Source of the DNA: Bradyrhizobium elkanii USDA 76
Lineage (GTDB): Bacteria; Pseudomonadota; Alphaproteobacteria; Rhizobiales; Xanthobacteraceae
DNA: 64,000 bases
Assembly: GCF_023278185.1 (NCBI RefSeq)
Contig: NZ_CP066357.1
Location: 62,001-126,000, forward strand
Direction of reading: 5' to 3'
Translations under genes and position numbers: made by a program
Notes under the pieces: model-generated
The model's input: the letters and a program-made list of their open reading frames with translations, nothing else
Told to the model about the DNA's origin: nothing
Databases searched by the model: none
Part shown: one piece after another, positions 34,990 through 49,275 of the stretch
How the letters are laid out: every line of letters starts with the position of its first letter
How positions within the stretch are numbered: position 1 is the stretch's first letter

Positions 34990-35731
34990 CTAAGCCGCCA
35001 TGGTCCTAGTATCCGTGAAGCGCTCTCCGTTTCTCAGCACCGCCCAGGCGATCCGGGCGAGCTTGTTTGCGAAAGCGACAACGGCGACATTGTGATGGGC
35101 GCGCCCTATGAGCGCTTTCGCCCACCGTCCCAGCGGCGTGTCCCGCTCAGCTATATGGGGCAACGCCGCGCGCGCTCCATGGATCAGCTGCTTGCGGAGA
35201 TATGTATTACCGCGCTTACTAATTCCCAGCAGCTTCGGTTTGCCTCCGGTGGTAAACTGACGTGGGACCACGCCAAGCCAGGCCGAAAGATCGCGGCCCC
35301 GATCAAAGAGCTCCGCCCGTCCAATCGCCGCGACAAGCGCAGTTGCCACAATCACGCCGATGCCGGGGATCGTGGTCAGCCGGCGAGCGTCTTCGTTCTC
35401 CTTCGCACAACGGACAAATTCCGCGTCGAAAGCCGCAATCCGACGGTTGAGCTCAGCCCATTGCGTGCGCGCGTCGGCGACCAGCGCGATCATCCGCGGG
35501 CTCAATCCCTCTCCGCCCTGTTCGTCCATCAGTACGCCCAGGAACTGTTCAAGCTTCTGCTTGCCCTGCGGCGCGACCAGGCCGCGCTCAAGCAGAATCG
35601 AGCGCAGCTGGTTGATCAGTGCTGTCCCCGTGGGTCGGTCAAAATCCCCCGGTATGGTCACTTGAAACTCCCCCACCTGATGATCGCCGTCAGCGCCGCT
35701 GAACAGCAGTAGCCGGTCAGGCAGGACGTTT

Positions 35732-37471
35732 ATGTTCGACCCCTTTAGCCAGCAAGGGGCCGGGGAGTTGAACGTCTTGAAGCGACATCTGCAAAGCACC
35801 GTACTTACATTACTTGATCGCAACACCAGCCAGCGCGAGATTCACCGGCTGACGGGTGTCGATCGCAAGACGATCCGGCGTTATCAGGCGCTGCGGGCCG
35901 GTGCGGAGGCAAATTCCCCCGGGGAAGTGACCACCGGCTCGGTGAGCGCGGACGGCCAAATTCCTCCACCCCGACCGGAAGCGACGGTCACCAGCAGCCT
36001 GGCCCGTTCGGCTTGCGAAGCGCATCGGACGTGGATCGAAGAACAGGTCCGGCTGAAGCGGAACGCGCAGGCGATTTACCAGGACCTGGTTGATCAATTT
36101 GGCTTTCCGTCCAGCTACCAGAGTGTCAAGCGGTTTGTGCGCCGGTTGCGGCACGCTGATCCTGAGCAGTTTGATCGTCTTGAGTTCCTCCCCGGCGAGG
36201 AAGCTCAGGTCGACTATGGCGAGGGCGCGCCGACGGTTGATCCGAAGAGCGGGCGGTACCGTCGTCCCCGCCTGTTCGTGATGACGCTACGCTACTCGCG
36301 GCGCAGCTTCCGGCGGGTAGTCTGGAAGTCCAGCCAACAAGTCTGGGCGCAGCTCCACGAAGAGGCGTTCCGGTATTTTGGCGGGGTCCCCAGCTATGCC
36401 GTGCTCGACAACCTGAAGGAAGGCGTCCTCAAGCCGGATTTGTACGAGCCCCAGCTCAACCCGATTTACAGCGCGATGCTGGCTCATTACGCCGTGGTCG
36501 CCGATCCCGCGCGCGTGGCCGATCCAAATCGGAAAGGATGCGTCGAGAATGCGATTCAACATACCCAGGGCACTGCGCTGGCCGGACGGCGCTTCGAGAC
36601 GCTGGAGGCGCAAAACGAGTTCTTGAGGCACTGGGAGGAGAACTGGGCTTCCAAACGCATCCACGGCAGCACGCGCCGTCAGGTCGAGGCGATGTTCCAG
36701 GAAGAGAAGCCGCACCTGCGGCCGCTGCCTGTCGCTCCCTTCCGCATCTTCACCGAAGTCGTCCGGACTGTCTGCGACGACACCACCGTACGCGTCGACA
36801 ACAGCTATTACGCCGCGCGGCCCGCGCCGATCGGCAGCCAGGTCGTCGTGCGCATCTACACCACCACGATCGAGATCCGTGATCGCCACACCCGTGCGCT
36901 GCTGCGTGTTCATTCCCGGATGGCGCACCCCGGTTCTGTCGTCCTGCCGACCAGCGAACGGCCGTTCAACCCGTCGCGGCAAACCGCCGTGCTGCTGGCG
37001 AGCGCCGAGCGCATCGGACCGCAGACCAGGGCCTTGTGCCAGCAGGTGTTCGACACCGAAGGGCGCCCCGGACAGCGCGCGATGTGGGGCATTGTCGGGC
37101 TGGGCCGGAAGTATCCGGCGCGGCTGGTCGAGCAGGCCTGCGCGCACGCCATCGATAACCGCATCTACCGCTACAAGCACGTGCGTGCGACCGTCGAGCG
37201 GTTGTTCGAACAGGCGATCGAGCAGGTTGGAGTGACGCCACAGCCGGCATCGCCGCTCACCCAGGATCATCCGCTGATCCGTACCCCCGCGGAATACGGC
37301 GACCTCTTCAGCCGCGCTGTGCGGCGCGACGCCGACGACAATGGTCGGCAGGCCGAGGCTCACGACGATCACGCCACGGCAATCCGCGCTCGTGTCGCCT
37401 GCGCAACCCCGGCCAACTCCGGCGCCACGAGCGCTCCCGCTGCACCTTCTCACCTTAAACTGGAGACCTAG
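35732..37471 (+). CDS. istA: IS21 transposase IstA (element c)
   Basis: This 579-aa transposase starts with an HTH (NTSQREIHRLTGVDRKTIRR) and has a DDE core with EAQVDYGEGAPTVDPKSGRY (D), SYAVLDNLKEGVLKPD (D) and NRKGCVENAIQHTQGTALAG (E). A beta-barrel region (VDNSYYAARPAPIGSQVVVR) and a basic tail follow. It belongs to a different IstA subgroup from elements a, b and d. It is separated from istB by 4 bp. Confidence 0.94.
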   Translation: MFDPFSQQGAGELNVLKRHLQSTVLTLLDRNTSQREIHRLTGVDRKTIRRYQALRAGAEANSPGEVTTGSVSADGQIPPPRPEATVTSSLARSACEAHRTWIEEQVRLKRNAQAIYQDLVDQFGFPSSYQSVKRFVRRLRHADPEQFDRLEFLPGEEAQVDYGEGAPTVDPKSGRYRRPRLFVMTLRYSRRSFRRVVWKSSQQVWAQLHEEAFRYFGGVPSYAVLDNLKEGVLKPDLYEPQLNPIYSAMLAHYAVVADPARVADPNRKGCVENAIQHTQGTALAGRRFETLEAQNEFLRHWEENWASKRIHGSTRRQVEAMFQEEKPHLRPLPVAPFRIFTEVVRTVCDDTTVRVDNSYYAARPAPIGSQVVVRIYTTTIEIRDRHTRALLRVHSRMAHPGSVVLPTSERPFNPSRQTAVLLASAERIGPQTRALCQQVFDTEGRPGQRAMWGIVGLGRKYPARLVEQACAHAIDNRIYRYKHVRATVERLFEQAIEQVGVTPQPASPLTQDHPLIRTPAEYGDLFSRAVRRDADDNGRQAEAHDDHATAIRARVACATPANSGATSAPAAPSHLKLET

Positions 37472-37475
37472 CCAC

Positions 37476-38243
37476 ATGATGACCATGCCGGAAATTGAGC
37501 GTTGCCTACGACAGCTGCGCCTGTCGGGTGTCCGCGACACGCTGCAGACGCGCGTGCTCCAGGCGCAGGGCGCCAACCAGCCCTTCCTCGAGACCTTCTC
37601 CCTTATCCTGCAGGATGAACTGGACCGTCGTCAGTCCCGTCTTATCGAGCGGCGATACCAGCAATCCGGGCTCGACGAAAAGCTGACGCTCGCCGAGTTC
37701 GACTGGTCCTTCAATCCCAAACTGCCACGTCAGACCTGCTTCCAGCTCCACACCCTGGCGTTCATTGCCGCTGGCGAGAACGCTCTGCTTGTTGGCAAAC
37801 CTGGCACCGGGAAGTCGCACATCGCCAAGGCGATTGCCTATCAGGCGATCCTGCAAAGCCACAAGGTCCAGTATCTTGAGACCGACGACTTCTTCCACCG
37901 CTACGCCCTGAACTCTCCGGCACAACGCGAGGTCCGGCTGCGAACCATCATCGACTGCGATCTCCTCGTGCTGGACGATCTATTCCTCGCACGCGCCATC
38001 CCCGACGACGCCGGCACTTTGCTGCAGACCCTGATCCATCAGCGTTACAAACTGCGCCGCAGCGTCATCGTCACCTCCAATCGCGTCGTGCAGGATTGGG
38101 GGGCACACCTTGGGGACAACACTATGAGCACGACGATCCTCGATCGCCTTATGCATCATTGCCATCTGCTTGAGTTCGACGGACGCAGCTATCGGCTCAA
38201 AGAAGCCGCTGAAGCTCTTGCCCGGGAAACAAACTCAAACTAA
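37476..38243 (+). CDS. istB: IS21 helper ATPase IstB (element c)
   Basis: This 255-aa AAA+ protein assembles on target DNA and activates IstA. Walker A is GENALLVGKPGTGKSHIAKA and Walker B is DCDLLVLDDLFLARAIPDDA, with the sensor segment RRSVIVTSNRVVQDWG. Unlike IstB of elements a and b, its Walker B block is uninterrupted. I chose the ATG at 37476 (MMTMPEIERC), 5 bp after istA. Confidence 0.94.
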   Translation: MMTMPEIERCLRQLRLSGVRDTLQTRVLQAQGANQPFLETFSLILQDELDRRQSRLIERRYQQSGLDEKLTLAEFDWSFNPKLPRQTCFQLHTLAFIAAGENALLVGKPGTGKSHIAKAIAYQAILQSHKVQYLETDDFFHRYALNSPAQREVRLRTIIDCDLLVLDDLFLARAIPDDAGTLLQTLIHQRYKLRRSVIVTSNRVVQDWGAHLGDNTMSTTILDRLMHHCHLLEFDGRSYRLKEAAEALARETNSN

Positions 38244-39125
38244 CAGTCCCTTGTCCTGCCTCGCGGGTGGAGGAATTTGACTGACCACACCCGGAGGAAT
38301 TTGAAGTGACCCGCGGGGCTGTCCGCTCACCGACCAGCCGGTCCCGGGATCGGTGAAGCGTCTGCATGTCGAGCTGGTCCTGGCTCTTCAGTCCTACAAA
38401 GCGCATCGTCGGCCGCGTCGCTGCCTCCGCGATCCCTTCGGCGTCACGATCGTCGTTCTTCTGCGCTTTGACGTGCGGCCGGACATATTCGGGCGACATC
38501 AGCCGAACATCATGACCATGGGCGGCGAACAACCTGCCCAGATGATGAGACCCGCAGCACGCCTCCATCCCGACGACGCACGGAGGAAGCTTCGCCACAA
38601 GAGCAACCAGCGTCTCGCGCCTCACGCTACGCCGCACCACGACTGCGCCAGACGCATCGAGCCCGACGACACTGCAGAAGTTCTTGCCAAGATCGATACC
38701 AAGCACTGCAATATCCATTTCCGTTCCTCCTTTTGTACGTCGGCGACCCTACACTCCGATGGAGGGGCGGGCCATTCCATAACGTATGAACGGAGATGGG
38801 GAGGACGAGGCATGAGGTATCCCGCCTCCGAGAAGGCCGAGATCATCCAGCTGGTCGAGCAATCGCATCTGCCGGCCAAGCGCACCTTGGACAAGCTCGG
38901 GATCCCCCGCGCCACGTTCTACCGCTGGTATGCGTGTTCCAGCCGATCGTGATCACCGATTCCAGGCCATCGTGATCACTCATTCCAGAGCATCGTGATC
39001 ACCGTTTCCACCCGATCGTGATCGCTATTTCCAGCGATCATGATCGGGGGCAATGGGGAGGCGCGCACCGCTGACAGTCTGCAACCCGGCTACCTTGGTC
39101 TTTTGCCCAACCGCAGAGGATCGAG

Positions 39126-40664: not shown

Positions 40665-41261
40665 TCAGGAGAGATCAGCATGCTCATTCACCCCACCGTC
40701 GATCGCTTGCGCGCACTCGGCCTCGCCGCCATGGCCGATACCTGCGTCGAACTGCAGAACAATCCCGAGGCGGCCGAGATGCCGCACGCCGATTGGCTCG
40801 GCCTCCTCGTCGATCGCGAGGTCACCGCCCGCGACAACCGCCGCCTCACGCGCCGCTTGACCGGGGCCAAGCTCCGTCAAGCCGCCACCATCGAGAACGT
40901 CGACTATCGCACCGCCCGTGGTCTCGATCGTTCGCTCTTCCAGAACCTCGTCACCTGTCAATGGATCCGTGACAGCAACCACCTGGTCATTGTCGGCCCA
41001 ACCGGCACCGGCAAGTCCTGGCTTGCCTGCGCGCTCGGCAACAAGGCCTGCCGCGACGGCTTTTCCGTCCTCTACAAGCGAACATCCCGCCTGTTCGCCG
41101 ATCTCGCCCAGGCGCGCGGCGAAGGCCGTCTGGCGCGCCTGATCGCGGCCCTGGAGCGCGTCAATCTCCTCATCCTTGATGGTGTGGACGGCCTCACTCA
41201 ACGGCATCATAGTGCCAAGGCGTGGTCGCCAGAGCGCCACAAAGAAGGGAGACCGTCCGAG

Positions 41262-42284
41262 ATGAAGTTTATCAGAATAGGCGTTGATCTCGCCAAGAAC
41301 TATTTTCAGATTCATGCGCTGTCTAGTGAGGATGCACCAGCCGTAAAGCGCAAGCTGACGCGCCGGACGATGCGCGAGTTCTTCTTGAAGATCGAGCCGT
41401 GCCGCATTGGCATGGAGGCTTGCGGTTCAGCGCACTATTGGGCGCGCGAACTGAAGGCCATGGGACACGATGTTTCTCTGATGCCGCCGGCCTACACAAA
41501 GCCCTATGTCAAACGAGGTAAGAACGATGCCGTCGATGCGGAAGCCATCTGTGAAGCGGTCTCGCGTCCTGCCATGCGTTTTGTGCCGATCAAGAGCGCT
41601 GATCAGCAAGCGACCCTGATGTTGCACAAGACACGCGAGCTGCTGGTCAAACAGCGAACGATGAGCGTGAACGCTCTACGCGGCCACTTGGCCGAATTCG
41701 GTCTTGTCGTCGCCAAGGGCAGCGGCCGCGTCGACGAGCTTTTAGGCCTCGCAGAAGGCGACGCGACTCTTCCCGACGCTGCTGTCTTGGCCGCGAAGGT
41801 TCTCGGTCAGCAAATTGATGCGCTCGGAAGCGCGCTCGATGATTTGGAGAGCGAGATCGCCAAGGCTCACGCGCTCAGCGAGACGAGCCGTTCGCTCGAA
41901 GAAATTCCCGGCGTTGGCAAGCTTGTTGCCTCGGTAATTGCAGCCAGTGTACCAGACCCAAGCGTATTCCATTCGGGACGGGATTTTGCTGCCTGGCTGG
42001 GTCTGACGCCCAGGCAAATTTCGAGCGGGGGTAAACCAACTCTCGGAACCATCACCAAGGCGGGTAATCGATATATAAGGAAGCTACTCGTTCTCGGAGC
42101 AACATCGCTTCTAAACGTTGTGGAAAAACGCCGCGGCGGCTTGCGCGACTGGATTGTCGGGCTTTTGGCTAAAAAGCCGGCGCGGCTTGTGACCGTCGCC
42201 CTCGCCAACAAGCTTGCTCGGATCATCTGGGCAATGATGAAAACCGGAGAATGCTTCCGCACCGAGATGTTCGCCAAACCTTGA
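41262..42284 (+). CDS. IS110-family transposase (bridge-RNA-guided recombinase type)
   Basis: This 340-aa protein has a RuvC-like DEDD N-terminal domain: FIRIGVDLAKNYFQIHAL (D), PCRIGMEACGSAHYWAREL (E), and KRGKNDAVDAEAICEAVSRP (D..D). A coiled middle follows, then a helix-hairpin-helix (SLEEIPGVGKLVASVIAASV) and the C-terminal Tnp domain with the serine block GRDFAAWLGLTPRQISSGGK. Full length and intact. The start MKFIRIGVD has GAGA upstream; a longer frame reaches back through istB but is an artefact of insertion. The enzyme family recombines donor and target DNA using an RNA guide. Confidence 0.94.
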   Translation: MKFIRIGVDLAKNYFQIHALSSEDAPAVKRKLTRRTMREFFLKIEPCRIGMEACGSAHYWARELKAMGHDVSLMPPAYTKPYVKRGKNDAVDAEAICEAVSRPAMRFVPIKSADQQATLMLHKTRELLVKQRTMSVNALRGHLAEFGLVVAKGSGRVDELLGLAEGDATLPDAAVLAAKVLGQQIDALGSALDDLESEIAKAHALSETSRSLEEIPGVGKLVASVIAASVPDPSVFHSGRDFAAWLGLTPRQISSGGKPTLGTITKAGNRYIRKLLVLGATSLLNVVEKRRGGLRDWIVGLLAKKPARLVTVALANKLARIIWAMMKTGECFRTEMFAKP

Positions 42285-42558
42285 GTGTCGGCCAGCCGCA
42301 TCCGAATCGAAGAGTTATAAGCTTGGTAAGTGCAAGAAAGGCATGATGAAAGACAACGGTCGCCACCGAAAACCAGGAAAACCCGACCAGTCGTGTGAGC
42401 TTTAAAGCTCGCATCCTTGATGTGACCCCCTGGTTGTCGGACTTCATCAGGGCCAGCGGAGATATGATCCGCGCTAAAGGCCGGACATACGATCGCAGCC
42501 GTCCAAGTCGTTCGAAGTGCCAAATTGTGCTTGCCATCAGAGGCCGTCCACATACGAC
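42285..42558 (+). ncRNA. Candidate bridge RNA of IS110-a
   Basis: The 3' non-coding region holds a stem AACCAGG/CCTGGTT (42371-42377 with 42429-42435) enclosing an internal loop and an apical hairpin GTGAGCT-TTAA-AGCTCGC (42395-42412). The 3' side of the loop contains CATCCTTGATG (42412-42422), identical to the left istB junction at 41171-41181. The 5' side contains CCAGTC (42387-42392), complementary to GACTGG just right of the element (42559-42564). One guide complementary to each half of the target is the arrangement described for IS110 bridge RNAs. A further ACATACGA (42485-42492) matches the element's own right end (42550-42557), as a donor guide might. Confidence 0.65.
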
Positions 42559-42801
42559 GACTGGGGACCCGAACCGCTCACCGCCGACCAGCGCCGTGAT
42601 CTGCTTGAGATCGTCGATGATCGCTACGACAAGGGGTCCTTGTTGACCACAAGTCAGGTCCCCGTGTCGCAATGGCATGACGTCATTGCCGATCCCACCC
42701 TCGGCGATGCGATATTGGACCGCATCATTCACAATGCGCACCGCATCGAGCTCAAAGGCGACAGCCTGCGCCGTCAGGCCGGCGAAAAGAAAAAACCGTG
42801 A

Positions 42802-43067: not shown

Positions 43068-43922
43068 GCTGGTATGACCGATACCGTGAAGGCGGCCCTG
43101 GGGCGCTGGATGACCGCCGTTCCCGACCAGACCGTGTCTGGAACCGGATCCCGGACAATGTCCGCCGCCAGATCATCGACCTGGCGCTGGATCTTCCAGA
43201 ACTGTCGCCGCGAGAGCTGGCGGTACGGTTCACCGACGAGAGGAAATATTTTGTCTCGGAGGCATCGGTCTATCGGCTGCTGAAGGCGCATGATCTCATC
43301 ACCAGCCCAGCGTACGTTGTGATCAAGGCGGCGAACGAGTTCAGGGATAAGACCACCGCCATCAACCAACTGTGGCAGACGGACTTCACCTACCTCAAGA
43401 TCACCGGTTGGGGATGGTACTATCTCTCGACCGTGCTCGACGACTTCTCGCGCTACATCGTGGCCTGGAAGCTCTGTGCCACGATGTGCGTCGATGACGT
43501 TACTGCAACCCTCGACCTGGCGCTGTCGGCCTCGGGCCTAGATCGCATCACCGTCGTGCACCGGTGCGGATTTCACGGATCGTGAGCATCGATTTCGCGC
43601 GATCGTGAGCACTGAATTCAGACGATCGTGAGCAGCCCGCTACGGCCGATGGGAGATAGAGTCAGTGTTCTGGTTGGCCGTCAAGGGTGATGGTTTTGGC
43701 GCTGCGTTTTCGCATGCTTTCTCCGGTGAGCTGGAGGCGGTGGGCGTTGTGGACGAGGCGATCGAGAATGGCGTCGGCGACCGTGGGGTCCCCAATGGCT
43801 CCATGCCAGGTGTCCACGGGGAGCTGACTTGTGACGATGGTGGATGCGCGGCCATGGCGGTCCTCGAGGATTTCGAGCAGATCGCGGCGTTCCGCGGCGG
43901 TGAGCACCGATAGTCCCCAATC

Positions 43923-43954
43923 ATCCAATCACGTTGAGCTCAACGTGATTGGAT
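43923..43954. repeat. Perfect 32-bp palindrome at the RIT left end
   Basis: The sequence reads ATCCAATCACGTTGAG followed by its exact complement CTCAACGTGATTGGAT. It joins the istB 3' part to the RIT inverted repeat and contains TTGGAT in both orientations. It could be a recombinase binding or attachment structure of the element. Confidence 0.85.
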
Positions 43955-44049
43955 TTATGTGCAGCACGCAGTGATGTGGAGTTGAGGGTTGACAATCGGC
44001 GCTGGTCCGGTTTTTGACAGCCCCAACTCCACATAATTTACCCTGTAGG

Positions 44050-45075
44050 TCATAGCCTCTTAAGCCAATCAACAATGTTGATCGCCGCAGAAGAGACGTG
44101 CCCAGCGCGAGGCGGTGCGAGGATCTCGGGGAACACCTGCATAAGCGCTTGGCGTTTTAGATCGATGTCCGCCCCTGCATAGGTCATGGTTGTGTTCAGC
44201 GACGAATGCCCAAGCCATTGGCTGATGGTCGCGAAGTCAACTCCCGCCTTCAGGAGAAAGATGGCGGTCGTATGCCGCAAGGAATGGGGATGGATCCGCT
44301 TCTGCTGCAGCGTGCGGGTTGCGTTTGCTCCGGCCGTGATGTGCTTCTTGAGCAGGTAACGAACGCCAAAGCGGGTCAACTTGCTGCCCTGGCGGTTCAC
44401 GAACAGCGGAGCGTCGCGGCCTCCCGAATGAGCATCACTGTTCGACAGTTCTTGCAGAAGTCGTGCGGTTTGCGGCCAAATTGGACACAATCGCGTTTTG
44501 TCGCCCTTGCCGCGCAGCCGGATTTGATGAGGAGGATCAGTGCGGATGTCGCACAGCCTCAGATCGAGGATCTCCTGAACACGGGCTCCCGTGTTGAGCA
44601 TCAATGCGAACAAGGCATAGTCGCGTTTGCCCCGTTCTGTGGACCGGTCGATCGATTTGAGCAACGCTTCTACTTCCTGCGGCTCAAGGTATTCGATCGG
44701 CTTGCTTCGCGCGCCGCGTTTGAACGGTACGCCTAGCACGCGCTGCAGTTCGGCGAGATAGGCGGGCTGTTCGGTTGCGAGAAAGCGAGAGAACGTATGC
44801 AGCGCCGCCAGCCGCGCATTGCGAGTGGCTACTCCATTGTGACGCTCAGCCTCTAGAAACGCCAGGAAGTCCTGAACCTGCTTCGCCGTGAAATCGACGA
44901 GATCGAGATCCTCGATAGCCTTGGCCGTTTGCGACGAAGTAAAGCGCAGGAACAGAACGAGCGCATCCCGGTAGTTGCGTATGGTGTGTCGGCTGGTACC
45001 CCGGAGCGTCGGCAGATACTCTCGGAAGAAGCGCTCGATGCTCTTGCCGAGCTCGTTAGGTCTTTGGGATCTCAT
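44050..45075 (-). CDS. ritC: RIT tyrosine recombinase C
   Basis: This 341-aa protein has an N-terminal SAM-like core-binding domain (GKSIERFFREYLPTLRGTSR) and the catalytic domain with LNTGARVQEILDLRLCDIR (Arg I), HPHSLRHTTAIFLLKAG (HxxR), LGHSSLNTTMTYAGAD (H and Tyr nucleophile). The ATG at 45075 overlaps the ritB stop as ATGA, which fixes the start. It is intact and is the third gene of the trio. Confidence 0.9.
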   Translation of the reverse strand: MRSQRPNELGKSIERFFREYLPTLRGTSRHTIRNYRDALVLFLRFTSSQTAKAIEDLDLVDFTAKQVQDFLAFLEAERHNGVATRNARLAALHTFSRFLATEQPAYLAELQRVLGVPFKRGARSKPIEYLEPQEVEALLKSIDRSTERGKRDYALFALMLNTGARVQEILDLRLCDIRTDPPHQIRLRGKGDKTRLCPIWPQTARLLQELSNSDAHSGGRDAPLFVNRQGSKLTRFGVRYLLKKHITAGANATRTLQQKRIHPHSLRHTTAIFLLKAGVDFATISQWLGHSSLNTTMTYAGADIDLKRQALMQVFPEILAPPRAGHVSSAAINIVDWLKRL

Positions 45076-45427
45076 GCGGCACCTCCTGTGATGAGGTGGC
45101 CGAAATGCCTCTCGAGCCGATCGCTGGCCGCAGCAGAAAGTTGTGGAATCCAGCGGAGGTAATAGGCAGTCGAAACAATTGAGACGTGCCCCATGTACAT
45201 CGCAAGCTTTGGCAGATTGGATTGGACATCCGCCCCTTGCTGGTACCATCGCAACAGCGATCCGACCGCAAAGCTATGGCGAAAGTCATGCACCCGCGGG
45301 GTTCGCCCGTCGGGGCCTCGAACGTCGGCGACTTGGAATAGAGCTGGCCCCGCAAATTCGGACAGTAGCTTGAGTGAATTTTCTGCCTGACAGCGGCGAG
45401 GATTCTTGCTGCGAATCAGGAGCGAAG

Positions 45428-45733
45428 ATGACGAAGAAGAGCCGCCGGACGCATTCTCCGGCATTCAAGGCGAAGGTTGCTTTGGCTGCGGTCAAAGGAG
45501 ACAAGACACTGGCGGAGCTGGCGCAACTGTTTGATGTTCATCCGAACCAGATCACGATCTGGAAAAACCAGCTCCTGGAAGGCGCCGCCGGCGTGTTTGG
45601 GCATGACAAGACATCGGCCGAGACGCCGGTCGATTTGAAGGCGTTGCATGCCAAGATCGGCGAGCTGGCGTTGGAAAACGATTTTTTGTCCGGCGCGCTC
45701 ACCAAGGCGGGCCTGCTGAGCGCAAAGCGATGA
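45428..45733 (+). CDS. IS3-family OrfA (copy 3)
   Basis: About 101 aa, identical to OrfA of copies 1 and 2 (HTH at HPNQITIWKNQLLEG). It has a GGAGCGAAG ribosome-binding region and overlaps orfB by ATGA. Confidence 0.93.
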   Translation: MTKKSRRTHSPAFKAKVALAAVKGDKTLAELAQLFDVHPNQITIWKNQLLEGAAGVFGHDKTSAETPVDLKALHAKIGELALENDFLSGALTKAGLLSAKR

Positions 45734-46557
45734 TCGACCGCGATCATGATCTTTCTATCGTGCGCCAGGCGAAGGTCCTGAAGCTGGCTCGCAGCACGGT
45801 CTACTATGAACCTCGGCCAGTTTCGGCCGAGGACCTTGCCTTGATGCGTCGGCTCGATGAGCTGCATCTCGATTATCCCTTCGCGGGAGCGCGTATGCTG
45901 CGATCGTTGCTGCGGCGGGAGGGGGTATACGCCGGTCGCCGCCACATCGCGACGCTGATGAAGCGCATGGGGATCGAGGCGGTCTATCGTCGCCCGAACA
46001 CGAGCAAGCCGGCTCCGGGTCACAAGATCTACCCGTACCTGTTGCGCGGATTGAAGATCGAGCGGCCCGACCATGCGTGGGCAATGGACATCACCTACAT
46101 TCCGATGCGGCGTGGCTTCGTCTATCTCGCGGCGGTCGTCGATGTGTTCAGCCGACGGGTCCTGGCCCATCGCGTCTCGATCACAATGGAGGCGGCCTTC
46201 TGCGTCGAAGCGGTCCAGGAGGCGTTGGCGAAGCACGGCAGGCCCGCGATTTTCAACACGGACCAGGGCAGCCAGTTCACCAGCCTCGAGTTCACCGATG
46301 TGCTGCTGGACGCGAAGATCGCCATCAGCATGGACGGCAAGGGCGCCTGGCGCGACAACGTGTTTGTCGAGCGGCTCTGGCGCACGGTCAAATACGAAGA
46401 AGTTTATCTCCGCGCCTACGACAGCGTGTCCGAGGCGCGAGCGTCAATTGCCAAGTATCTGGCCTTCTACAATCAGGGACGCCCTCACTCGAGCCTTGAC
46501 GGGCGCACGCCCGACGAGGCTTACTTCGGCACGCAAGCTATGGTGATGGCCGCATGA
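45730..46557 (+). CDS. IS3-family transposase OrfB (copy 3)
   Basis: This 275-aa rve transposase has all three catalytic residues (MDITYIPM, NTDQGSQFTS, VERLWRTVKYEE). It differs from copy 1 by rare changes such as GRPAIF for GRPEIF. It is intact. Confidence 0.95.
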   Translation: MIDRDHDLSIVRQAKVLKLARSTVYYEPRPVSAEDLALMRRLDELHLDYPFAGARMLRSLLRREGVYAGRRHIATLMKRMGIEAVYRRPNTSKPAPGHKIYPYLLRGLKIERPDHAWAMDITYIPMRRGFVYLAAVVDVFSRRVLAHRVSITMEAAFCVEAVQEALAKHGRPAIFNTDQGSQFTSLEFTDVLLDAKIAISMDGKGAWRDNVFVERLWRTVKYEEVYLRAYDSVSEARASIAKYLAFYNQGRPHSSLDGRTPDEAYFGTQAMVMAA

Positions 46558-47413
46558 CCGTCGCCGACGATTTTGTCGTCGCTCTGGTCGGGCTACGCCC
46601 TCCCGACGCAACGACAAAATCGTAAAGCCCCGCGTTCAGCATAACCCGGCAGGAATCCACTTAAATCCAGCGGGGCGCTGTCCAAACAACCGGGGCCAGC
46701 TCTGAATAGCGTTTGGACTCCTTCCCGCAGGCCGGTACCTGTGTAGCCGCGCACGCACCCCTTGGTATTGCAAAGCAAGGGTGAATCCGCCGAATGGCTC
46801 AGAGGTGATCGCAACCGCTTCCTGAGGTACAACCTCAGCTCCCGACAGGCATCCGGCGACAACGGGACGATCCGCGACTTGTGGAACTTCGACGCACGAA
46901 TGTGCAAAATGCCATGGCGGGCATCGACGTCGGCCAAGGTGAGACGCAGCAGCTCGCCCCTACGGAGCCCCGCGGTGTAGAGCAGGACCACGGCAAGTCG
47001 CATCACCGCTGGCCGCAGCGGCGAACTTGACGTCGGAGCCAAATGATCGGCTATGGCCAACATCCTGGCGACTTCGGCCGCCCCAAAGATGACCGGCGGT
47101 GCATGGGGGCTCCGACGTGGGAAGCGATTGATATCCGGAACGAAGCAACTTGGCTCGGTACGCTGACGATAGAGACAAAAGTTGCGCACGATACGCTGGC
47201 GATTGCGCCTCGTGTTTGCAGAAAGATGACCTTGTGACACGCACCATCCCTCGAAGAGCGCTTGGTCGAGGTCAGTACAGGTGTTCTTCTCCAGAAATTG
47301 ACGCAGAGCGTCGATTACGCGCTCCTCATGAACATAGCCGCGCCCGAGTGAACGTTGCCTCTGCAAATAACGGTCCACCACTTGGTTGAACGGGATCGCC
47401 GATAAGGTCGCGC

Positions 47414-48631
47414 TCATGCCGCGTCCTCCTCGATGCCGATGGTCGCCGTTGGCAGAGGAAGCGCGACCTCTCGCAGGGCCCCGGTCTGCAGCCGGAGATA
47501 GACACAGGTGCTCTCCAGAGTTCGATGGCCGAGCAGATCACCGATCACCTTGACGCCGACACCACGATCGAGCAGACGCATCGCAAACGAATGGCGCAGG
47601 CAGTAGGAGGATGTATCCTGCAGCGGCAGACCGCTCTGACGTGCGCGCTTCTGGTAGAGATCGCCTATGGCGTAGTGCGTGAGGGGACCGACCGGGGGGC
47701 TTGCGCGGAGGAAAAGTTCGCGGTGCGCCCCGCCGGGCCGGCCGCGGCGCAGATAGCGCCTGAGGATGCGTATGGTTTGTTCGGCTAGAGGAAGCGCCAG
47801 ATCTGATCTGGTCTTGCACTGCTTGACGCGGAGCGTGCGGCTATCCCAATCGATTGAGCCAAGCGTCAGTGCGATGATCTCGGAGGGCCGCAGGCCGTAA
47901 TGCGCCATCAAATGGAGGATCGCATAGTCTCGCCAGCCAAGCCGCTCCGATCGGTCGATGGAGCGCAGCAGCCGCTTTACAAGCGGCCAAGCCAGAGCTC
48001 GAGGCGGTCGTTCACCTCGGTAGGCGCGCGGCGCGTCAATTGCGTCGAGCCGTTGCCGAATCTCGCCGTGGTCGAAGCAAAACCTAAGAAAGGCGCGGAG
48101 GCGAGCGACAACGTGCTGTAGGGTTTGTCGCTTAATGCGCCGCGCTTTGGTCATTACGAACCGATCGACTGTGGCAGCTGACAACGCATGCAGCGGGGCG
48201 CCAGCTGGCAAAGCGTACGCGAGCAAGCTCTTCACTGTTGCGATGTGCTGTTCCAGGGTCGCGCCGGTAAGGCCACGCACCTCCGATAGATACCGTCTGT
48301 AGCGACCAAGAAGTGCTGAGAACGGCTCGGGTACTGCTTCTTTGACGAACAGCCGCCTCGCGATGAGAAAACGTTCAACGGCGCGTCGGGTGCCTTGCAA
48401 TGACGCGGGGGCAAATGCTTGCGACAAGAACCGTCCTGAAACGCCGGTATCGCAATCAAGCCGCGCTGAACACATCCGGTCGAGAGCTTCCTTTAGGCCT
48501 CGTACGTGGTGGCAGGCCGTAGATCGGGCGTAGCCAGCCGAGATGAGCCAAGTAGCGAAATCTTCCAACAAAGTGCCATTGGGCGATGCCGTGTAACCCG
48601 CGTGAACCTTCCGGAATAAGTGTTCGAGCAT
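47414..48631 (-). CDS. ritA: RIT tyrosine recombinase A
   Basis: This 405-aa protein has an N-terminal arm and core-binding region (GLTGATLEQHIATVKSLLAY) and the catalytic part with LMAHYGLRPSEIIALTLGSI (Arg I), SYCLRHSFAMRLLDRGVGV (HxxR motif) and LGHRTLESTCVYLRL (H and Tyr). It is first in the operon, with the ritB start overlapping its stop. It is intact. Confidence 0.9.
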   Translation of the reverse strand: MLEHLFRKVHAGYTASPNGTLLEDFATWLISAGYARSTACHHVRGLKEALDRMCSARLDCDTGVSGRFLSQAFAPASLQGTRRAVERFLIARRLFVKEAVPEPFSALLGRYRRYLSEVRGLTGATLEQHIATVKSLLAYALPAGAPLHALSAATVDRFVMTKARRIKRQTLQHVVARLRAFLRFCFDHGEIRQRLDAIDAPRAYRGERPPRALAWPLVKRLLRSIDRSERLGWRDYAILHLMAHYGLRPSEIIALTLGSIDWDSRTLRVKQCKTRSDLALPLAEQTIRILRRYLRRGRPGGAHRELFLRASPPVGPLTHYAIGDLYQKRARQSGLPLQDTSSYCLRHSFAMRLLDRGVGVKVIGDLLGHRTLESTCVYLRLQTGALREVALPLPTATIGIEEDAA

Positions 48632-48736
48632 GGTTGCCTCCTTCGGATGAACGAGAGAGAACCACGCTACCGTCGTCAGTTATGTTGAGTAGGGACGGTC
48701 GAAGCGGCTGTTAATAGCGGGGAGAATCTAGATCGC

Positions 48737-48768
48737 TCCACATCACTGCGTGCTGCACATAAATCCAA
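48737..48768. repeat. RIT right terminal inverted repeat
   Basis: An exact 32-bp reverse complement of 43949-43980. It starts TCCACATCACTGCGTG on the plus strand and abuts the istB N-terminal part. Confidence 0.92.
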
Positions 48769-49275
48769 AATCAGAAGCTGAGCGCGGCCGAGGCTTTTGA
48801 GGAGCCGGGCGTAACGTCCGTCTCCGCGCGCGAGCGCCTCGAACAGCCTTGGAACGCGATGATAGAGGACTGATCGGTTGTCGCGGCAGGCCTTGTGGCC
48901 GAGCGCGCAGGCTAACCAACTTTTGCCCAGGCCGGTTGCCCCGGTGACGAGCAAATTCTCGTGGCGATCGATCCAGCGACCTTCGACGAGTTTGGCGAAA
49001 ACGGCGCGGTCGATGCCCCGCGGGGTGCGCAGATCGACGTCCTCGACGCAAGCAGTCTGGCGCAGTGCGGCGATCTTGAGGCGCGTGGTGAGCCGCCTGG
49101 TGTCGCGTTCGGCGGCTTCGCGGTCGACCAACAGGCCGATGCGATCTTCGAACGGCAGGGCTTCGAGATCGGGCGATCGGCGCTGCTCCTCGAAGGCCTT
49201 GGCCATTCCGGTCAGGCCAAGCTCGATCAGCCGTTCGTGGGTTGGGTGGTTAAGCATGCCGGGTCTCTCCTTGCT

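Follow-up and report, generated by a model that had tools for sequence, protein, structure and literature searches.

In the 64,000-nucleotide stretch of DNA analyzed here (the window), which comes from a 403-kb replicon in a Bradyrhizobium-like genome, an IS21 istB gene is interrupted by an insertion sequence that we are highly confident is an IS1111-group element with a bridge RNA encoded downstream of its transposase gene, aimed at the Walker B site of istB and inserted there by the DEDD recombinase of the element. The site, the junctions, a conserved RNA structure and the covariation of the guides with the flanks and with the terminus of the element were all observed, and copies identical to the element were found on B. 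ottawaense and B. elkanii plasmids. The insertion and its target comprise the following features:

40680..41176, + strand: 5′ part of istB (IS21 helper ATPase), up to the Walker B codons (LLIL); Pfam IstB_IS21, E 6.8e-41, and tblastn
41171..41176, + strand: left half of the target, CATCCT; the intact copies L066 and L067 read CATCCT-CGACGACTGG
41177..42554, + strand: IS1111-group insertion sequence, 1378 bp, ends placed from intact istB and from relatives at other targets
41177..41183, + strand: left terminal extension TGATGGT, the element's own; its last base is the first of the subterminal inverted repeat (sTIR)
41183..41195, + strand: left sTIR TGTGGACGGCCTC, a 13-bp perfect inverted repeat
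41262..42284, + strand: DEDD transposase/recombinase, 340 aa; Pfam DEDD_Tnp_IS110 (PF01548) and Transposase_20 (PF02371)
42540..42552, + strand: right sTIR GAGGCCGTCCACA, partner of TGTGGACGGCCTC
42555..42801, + strand: 3′ part of istB (DDWGPEPLTADQRR...); Pfam IstB_IS21, E 2.2e-22
42555..42556, + strand: two-base core CG, from the target, as given by the empty site
42557..42564, + strand: right half of the target, ACGACTGG, in the istB flank

Two uninterrupted istB genes, L066 and L067, are close kin of the interrupted one and read CTCATCCTCGACGACTGGGG (L067 is intact at the site but frameshifted elsewhere), while interrupted copies read CTCATCCT-TGATGGTGTGG...CCACATA-CGACGACTGGGG. The parsed relatives have TGATG at the left end whatever their target, the exceptions being TGTTG (L030 and L159), TGATT (L043) and TGAAT (L045), and the right end of relatives elsewhere mostly reads ATA-TG or ACA-TG before the target (31 discovery and 42 held-out rows). 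Because of the intact istB reads and the TGATG starts of the relatives, the element is placed at 41177-42554, with CATCCT-CG-ACGACTGG as its target and CG as its core. Comparison with the intact copies showed no target duplication at the istB site. Most parsed relatives have TG as the core; most copies in the istB clade have CG at their right end, as in the donor guide of that clade, the constancy on the right side being partly imposed by our end-finding rule, which demands TG or CG past the right terminus.

A first-pass annotation of this DNA had proposed a bridge RNA whose loop matches the istB sequence at the left junction over the 11 nt CATCCTTGATG. The window contains this string in two places, 41171-41181 and 42412-42422, and lacks it on the other strand, but only CATCCT (41171-41176) is istB; the remaining TGATG (41177-41181) forms the left terminus of the element itself, as judged from intact istB and the relatives. 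The uninterrupted istB target with both half-sites, for which the same annotation had suggested a search, was found in L066 and L067, both of which read CATCCT-CG-ACGACTGG.

In IS21 IstB, these 16 bp code for the Walker B motif (I-L-D-D-W), inside which the insertion cuts the protein. The E167Q mutant of another IstB, altered in Walker B, is described in the excerpted text of PMC11208146 as having reduced ATPase and integration activity. Since the motif is cut here and that mutant is impaired, the host IS21 element has probably lost transposition through the break in istB, and IstB function would be lost with it. In two copies, L001 and L069, istB and the transposase share one open frame, owing to a difference of one base after the left sTIR. 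This in-frame istB::transposase fusion (ORF 40680-42284, 534 aa) was considered as a conserved feature and rejected, because the frame is open in two of the nine copies checked (L001 and L069), and the other seven meet a stop after 12 codons, which closes it.

By the testable traits of the group, which its sequence carries, the element is an IS1111-group member of the IS110 family. The transposase shows the motifs GVDLAKN, GMEACG, DAVDAE and GLTPRQISSGG, the last of which is the C-terminal G--P----S(t)G motif of the group, and its 340 aa fall in the 330-350 aa range. The sTIRs, 13 bp long within a range of 7-17 bp, are set in from the left end by 6 nt and from the right end by 2 nt, and the longer non-coding region (NCR) is downstream, where 255 bp separate the stop codon from the right sTIR, compared with 85 bp between the left end and the start codon. 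The element thus resembles the IS1111 elements described with a seekRNA, ISEc11, ISPa11, ISKpn4 and ISPst6 (Siddiquee et al. 2024, PMC11187229), in its downstream NCR, its sTIRs, its 330-350 aa DEDD transposase and an RNA whose top-strand match lies 5′ of the bottom-strand match. Its target differs, as IS21 istB is not named in the excerpted text of PMC11187229.

The 3′ NCR appears, from its conserved pairing and its matches to the flanks and ends, to encode a bridge RNA (seekRNA) with the following parts:

42357..42368, + strand: 5′ hairpin of the RNA, CGGTCGCCACCG (helix 1; 89.7% of cells paired, 1 of 3 pairs with double changes)
42371..42435, + strand: target-binding loop closed by AACCAGG/CCTGGTT (helix 2; 6 of 7 pairs with double changes)
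42387..42394, + strand: right target guide CCAGTCGT, pairing with ACGACTGG (42557-42564), an 8-nt match to its own flank
42397..42410, + strand: apical hairpin GAGC...GCTC between the guides (helix 4; 100% of cells paired, 3 of 4 pairs double-changed)
42412..42417, + strand: left target guide CATCCT, then TGATG, a 6-nt match to its own flank
42445..42449, + strand: proposed 5′ arm of the donor guide, CATCA, complementary to the left end TGATG
42451..42482, + strand: donor-side hairpin GGCC-GCGG...CCGC-GGCC (helices 5 and 6; 98.9% and 96.5% of cells paired)
42485..42493, + strand: 3′ arm of the donor guide, ACATACGAT, matching the right terminus CACATACG
42531..42536, + strand: TTGCCA, −35-like hexamer of the expected circle-junction promoter, whose −10 is TA + core + AT

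The sequences quoted in the first-pass annotation lie where it had placed them (AACCAGG from 42371, CCTGGTT from 42429 and GACTGG at 42559-42564), and the structure that it had expected homologues to share is conserved among them, with compensatory changes. In our alignment A1 of 23 sequences, which we selected ourselves and which includes L032, whose gene is frame-broken, the fold consists of a 5′ hairpin, a target stem with its apical hairpin and a donor-side double hairpin, a conserved secondary structure as in seekRNAs and bridge RNAs. Changes on both sides affect 14 of its 25 pairs. Over the 23 sequences, 93.9% of the cells are paired, compared with 81.9% after shuffling. The covariation score is 0.398 versus 0.166 for shuffled alignments, a value that none of 500 shuffles reached and below which slid versions stayed (at most 0.083); as the structure was derived from the same alignment, the slide control favors it, and as the sequences are related, the shuffles do not amount to a strict probability. 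A search against Rfam gave no family matches, a scan of the NCR for a promoter-like site found none, and the sole terminator-like site in the NCR is on the other strand and within chance.

Inverted repeats would likewise yield conserved pairing in DNA, and this, together with the lack of a promoter-like site in the NCR, would suit a region acting mainly as DNA, by recombinase binding or as a cruciform structure, and not as RNA. We find this very unlikely, as G-U pairs are retained within the helices and as four published IS1111 elements make such an RNA, which is bound by the transposase (PMC11187229).

The target loop of the putative bridge RNA carries guides for both strands with the top-strand match 5′, as in seekRNAs (CCAGTCGT at 42387 and CATCCT at 42412). 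The complementarity to the right flank noticed in the first-pass annotation, CCAGTC/GACTGG, is present but is 8 nt long (CCAGTCGT/ACGACTGG) and not 6. The core is unmatched in the target loop, because the RNA has TG beside CATCCT where the istB core is CG.

To compare guides and flanks, we took the 10 nt outside each end of an element and recorded the longest piece starting at the junction that was found in the element's own NCR. The discovery set held 30 elements, 23 of them non-redundant once duplicates were collapsed; 13 full-length matches with unrecognised ends were skipped, one of 31 elements without a left flank was left out, and L032 did not enter the permutation test. The mean left match was 4.23 nt for own flanks versus 2.18 when permuted, and the mean right match 5.83 versus 4.15 (0 of 20,000 permutations for each, n = 30). 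The non-redundant elements (n = 23) gave 4.09 versus 2.15 on the left and 5.78 versus 4.12 on the right, again with 0 of 20,000 each. A held-out set of 60 further regions yielded 42 parsed rows and 30 usable non-redundant elements, after removal of rows sharing flanks with the discovery set or with each other and of two whose flanks were cut by a contig end; its matches averaged 3.13 versus 2.05 on the left and 5.43 versus 4.28 on the right (0 of 20,000 permutations each, n = 30). The window element scores 6 on the left and 8 on the right. Weak left matches (2 nt or less) were seen in 4 of the 30 discovery elements (L043, L046, L051 and L062) and in 18 of the 42 held-out rows, mostly in the group with the left end TGATGCT, and weak right matches (3 nt or less) in 3 of 30 (the + element of L024, L061 and L063) and 3 of 42 (L119, L146 and L149).

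Guides and targets also change together between close relatives. L047, L048 and L057 have nearly the same RNA and a common right target, TGACCCA, and their left guides GAAAA, GCTCG and GCGAT equal their own flanks. Between L055 and L062, the right guide differs by one base (ATGGGCCA versus ACGGGCCA) and the flank by the matching change (TGGCCCAT versus TGGCCCGT). Natural retargeting was also found among L024, L032 and L040, whose transposases share 68-79% identity with that of the window. The first-pass annotation had named homologues with the same loop at unrelated targets as evidence that would count against it: all the copies examined with the CATCCT guide lie in istB, at the same codons, also where the istB DNA next to the element is only about 71-75% identical, and relatives that moved to other targets have correspondingly altered guides.

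That close copies occupy one site is also what insertion directed by the protein would yield, if the transposase alone recognised the conserved istB and the RNA match were incidental or a copy of the flank. We hold this to be extremely unlikely, since near-identical relatives elsewhere have guides altered to match their targets, in two sets, and since the structure around the guides is conserved. The earlier proposal that the RNA directs insertion into the Walker B codons of istB is supported by the structure, the istB copies and the guide changes, with expression and transposition as predicted steps.

A second, donor-matching part of the RNA, absent from the first-pass annotation, consists of CATCA (42445-42449) and ACATACGAT (42485-42493). 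CATC stands at the position of the proposed 5′ arm in 19 of the 23 aligned sequences, and the RNA segment after AGGCCGGAC repeats the right terminus of the element. As in seekRNAs, this donor-binding segment matches the terminus at the right end: the terminus triplet equals the guide triplet in 69 of 72 elements (out of 73, one without a recognised donor segment being left out), across the five states ACA, ATA, CGA, AGA and ACG, and in 51 of 54 once similar NCRs were collapsed. Among the parsed elements, CG follows the donor triplet only in the istB-targeting clade (L001 and L021) and the others have TG; the CG of this clade accords with its CG target core. Compared with the work on IS1111 seekRNAs (PMC11187229), the donor guide and its covariation with the right end are traced here too.

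At the predicted circle junction, TGAT joined to the right end would form a −10 box, giving TTGCCA, 16 bp and TA-core-AT. A −35-like hexamer (at least 4 of 6 matches, spacing of 15-19 bp) was present in 41 of 57 distinct elements, compared with ~16% at other positions in the same regions. A circle-junction promoter has been published for ISEc21, in a sentence opening with "As for ISEc11" (PMC11187229).

Insertion by a bridge RNA would then proceed as follows. The target loop would base-pair with both strands of CATCCT-CG-ACGACTGG, the second, multi-branched part of the RNA would match the joined ends of the excised circular element, and the DEDD recombinase would exchange target and donor at the two-base core, so that the element would enter without target duplication and break istB. 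Transcription, the RNA-protein complex, the circle intermediate and strand exchange are all expected by analogy with published relatives. The two-part RNA, with target and donor portions, is like the bridge RNAs of IS621 and the IS110 family (Durrant et al. 2024, PMC11208160), and many IS1111 orthologues have their donor-binding bases in a multiloop, as seems to be so here; IS621, however, belongs to the IS110 group, with its RNA mostly in the left end and an internal donor loop (PMC11208160). Neither istB nor IS21 occurs in the main text of PMC11208160.

All 21 listed plasmid records that match 73% or more of the element at 95% identity or higher have the left half of istB directly adjoining it, as compared by coordinates and, for seven of them, also by sequence; these are the listed records of 22 counted at 95% or more, the remaining one being a shorter match. 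At least two types of istB host the element, with left-flank DNA about 71-75% identical between them. The second type holds many copies, largely of one plasmid lineage, so that independent insertions are few, by our estimate at least three. Such a distribution could be that of an immobile relic, in which the istB::IS copies descend from one ancient plasmid-borne insertion and the guide match is a fossil: most second-type copies have left flanks ~92% or more identical and look like few plasmid lineages, and some copies are truncated (L072 and L074) or lack the right sTIR (L029, L038, L069 and L070). We consider such a relic unlikely, because the histories of element and host disagree. Indeed, L001 and L069 carry an element identical over 1,360 bp in two istB genes with 72% identical left-flank DNA, whereas the RNA of L072 is only 87% identical beside a right flank that is 97% identical. 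Several insertions or exchanges are therefore needed.

In L021, the left istB flank is of one type (93% identical to that of L022) and the right flank is closer to the other (92% identical to that of the window), which suggests an exchange, by recombination, between two istB::IS copies. L069 and L070 are 99.9-100% identical up to window position 42541 and have lost the right sTIR (junction CATCAGACGACTGG), a loss that may have frozen them in place.

Of 195 genomes of the genus, 49 contain the pattern specified by the guides, ATCCTNGACGACTGG, and the window's own genome lacks it. Thirty pattern sites were fetched, and 18 of them lie in istB genes and 12 do not; the 18 genes are 42-100% identical to one intact IstB, and all read LILDDWG. 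One guide pair can serve many diverged IS21 elements, because the Walker B codons are constrained. At E <= 1e-115, a search at the order level (397 genomes) gave no match beyond the window's own genome, and one at the class level (385 genomes) gave a single further match, L063.

For the targets of relatives, we joined the flanks across the element at 30 distinct loci, translated them and confirmed the genes by Pfam. Relatives lie in four other transposase genes, with reading frames that are continuous once the flanks are joined: an IS256/Mutator transposase gene (L024, FPAE^HWTHLRTSNPIES), an IS3-type integrase core gene (L050, NAFIESF^NGRLRDE), an IS91 Y2 transposase gene (L155, LHT^WGQTLQHHPHIHC) and the C-terminus of an IS66 transposase (L159, LLP^WEW). 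By eye, the IS3-type motif is also seen at L115 and L117. We take the IS3 and IS91 names of these genes to be correct, and the IS3 E and the IS91 HPHIH histidines at these targets are presumably catalytic. Most of the other loci among the 30 have no recognised gene at the insertion, and the flanks of some (L039/L040 and L004-L009) look like dispersed palindromic repeats. At about 1220-2613 of L063, an IS1111-group relative with a 56% identical transposase lies at a repeat boundary within a CRISPR-like array (repeat of 29 nt, spacing of 61 nt), and its right guide is partly complementary to the repeat.

The guide of ISEc21, of the IS110 type, is aimed at the second D of DDE in IS3 transposases, and ISEc21 and ISMch6 provide one natural redirection by a few guide changes (PMC11187229). 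As here, catalytic codons of another IS are targeted, redirection is natural and there is no target duplication; unlike here, these elements are of the IS110 type, with an upstream NCR, a reversed guide order and IS3 as the target (PMC11187229). The mechanism and the general strategy are thus already known; what the present case contributes is Walker B of istB as a target, a view of how far natural retargeting extends, and covariation of the donor guide followed within one clade. In the titles and abstract openings of the open-licence literature, we found no published report of an IS110 element in istB or of a RIT element in istB. The element offers a natural, well-resolved case of RNA-guided insertion, with guides, targets, ends and core comparable across dozens of copies, and the retargeting visible between near-identical RNAs provides a ready panel from which the rules followed by the guides of IS1111 recombinases could be learned. 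A further suggestion from this case is that guide RNAs let IS elements parasitise others of their kind and disable them where codons are constrained.

Another istB of the window has three tyrosine recombinases (44053-48631) between its halves. A RIT-like element (window 43662-49257, − strand), with ORFs inside that we read as IS3-like, lies in this istB right after LLILD. The exact pattern of its left end gave 9 matches in 3 of 195 genomes. Adding L064 and L065 brings the left-type ends to seven, all seven in frame after LLILD, the other four being the opposite end; L064 and L065 were found through istB and bias this count, and excluding them and the window leaves 4 of 4 after LLILD, in two genomes. 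Such ends stand at LLILD in several different istB genes (L064, L065, L168, L170, L172, L174 and L175). Though it has no bearing on the RNA, this makes the Walker B codons an attachment site common to the RIT-like and the IS1111 element. We know of no guide RNA for RIT elements. RIT elements have their recombinases in a trio (PMC3414803). In the window and in relatives, the RIT-like element occupies the same istB Walker B codons as the IS1111 element, with tyrosine recombinases that are unrelated to the DEDD recombinase and an insertion that falls between the two D codons.

A joint reading of these targets, which we put forward tentatively as possible rather than probable, is that evolution in this clade has brought bridge RNAs, time after time, to the codons of motifs that are conserved and often catalytic in competing mobile elements (Walker B of IS21 IstB, IS256, IS3 close to NAFIESF, IS91 beside HPHIHC and the IS66 C-terminus). 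Such codons would be the least erasable by synonymous drift, insertion there would disable the rival, and the Walker B codons would be so suited as an attachment site that an unrelated tyrosine-recombinase trio converged on them.

The other end of the RIT-like element (window 43923-43954; L169, L171, L173 and L176) is a palindrome with the constant centre ACGTTGAGCTCAACGT and arms that vary between copies, and the outer bases of the arms resemble the last bases of istB left half-sites (GGAT, GGAC, CGAC and CGAT). Elsewhere in the window, the nesting is reversed: another IS110-type transposase gene (35014-35625 and 38317-38706, − strand) appears to be split by an IS21 element with an istA-like ORF at 35732-37471 and istB at 37341-38243.
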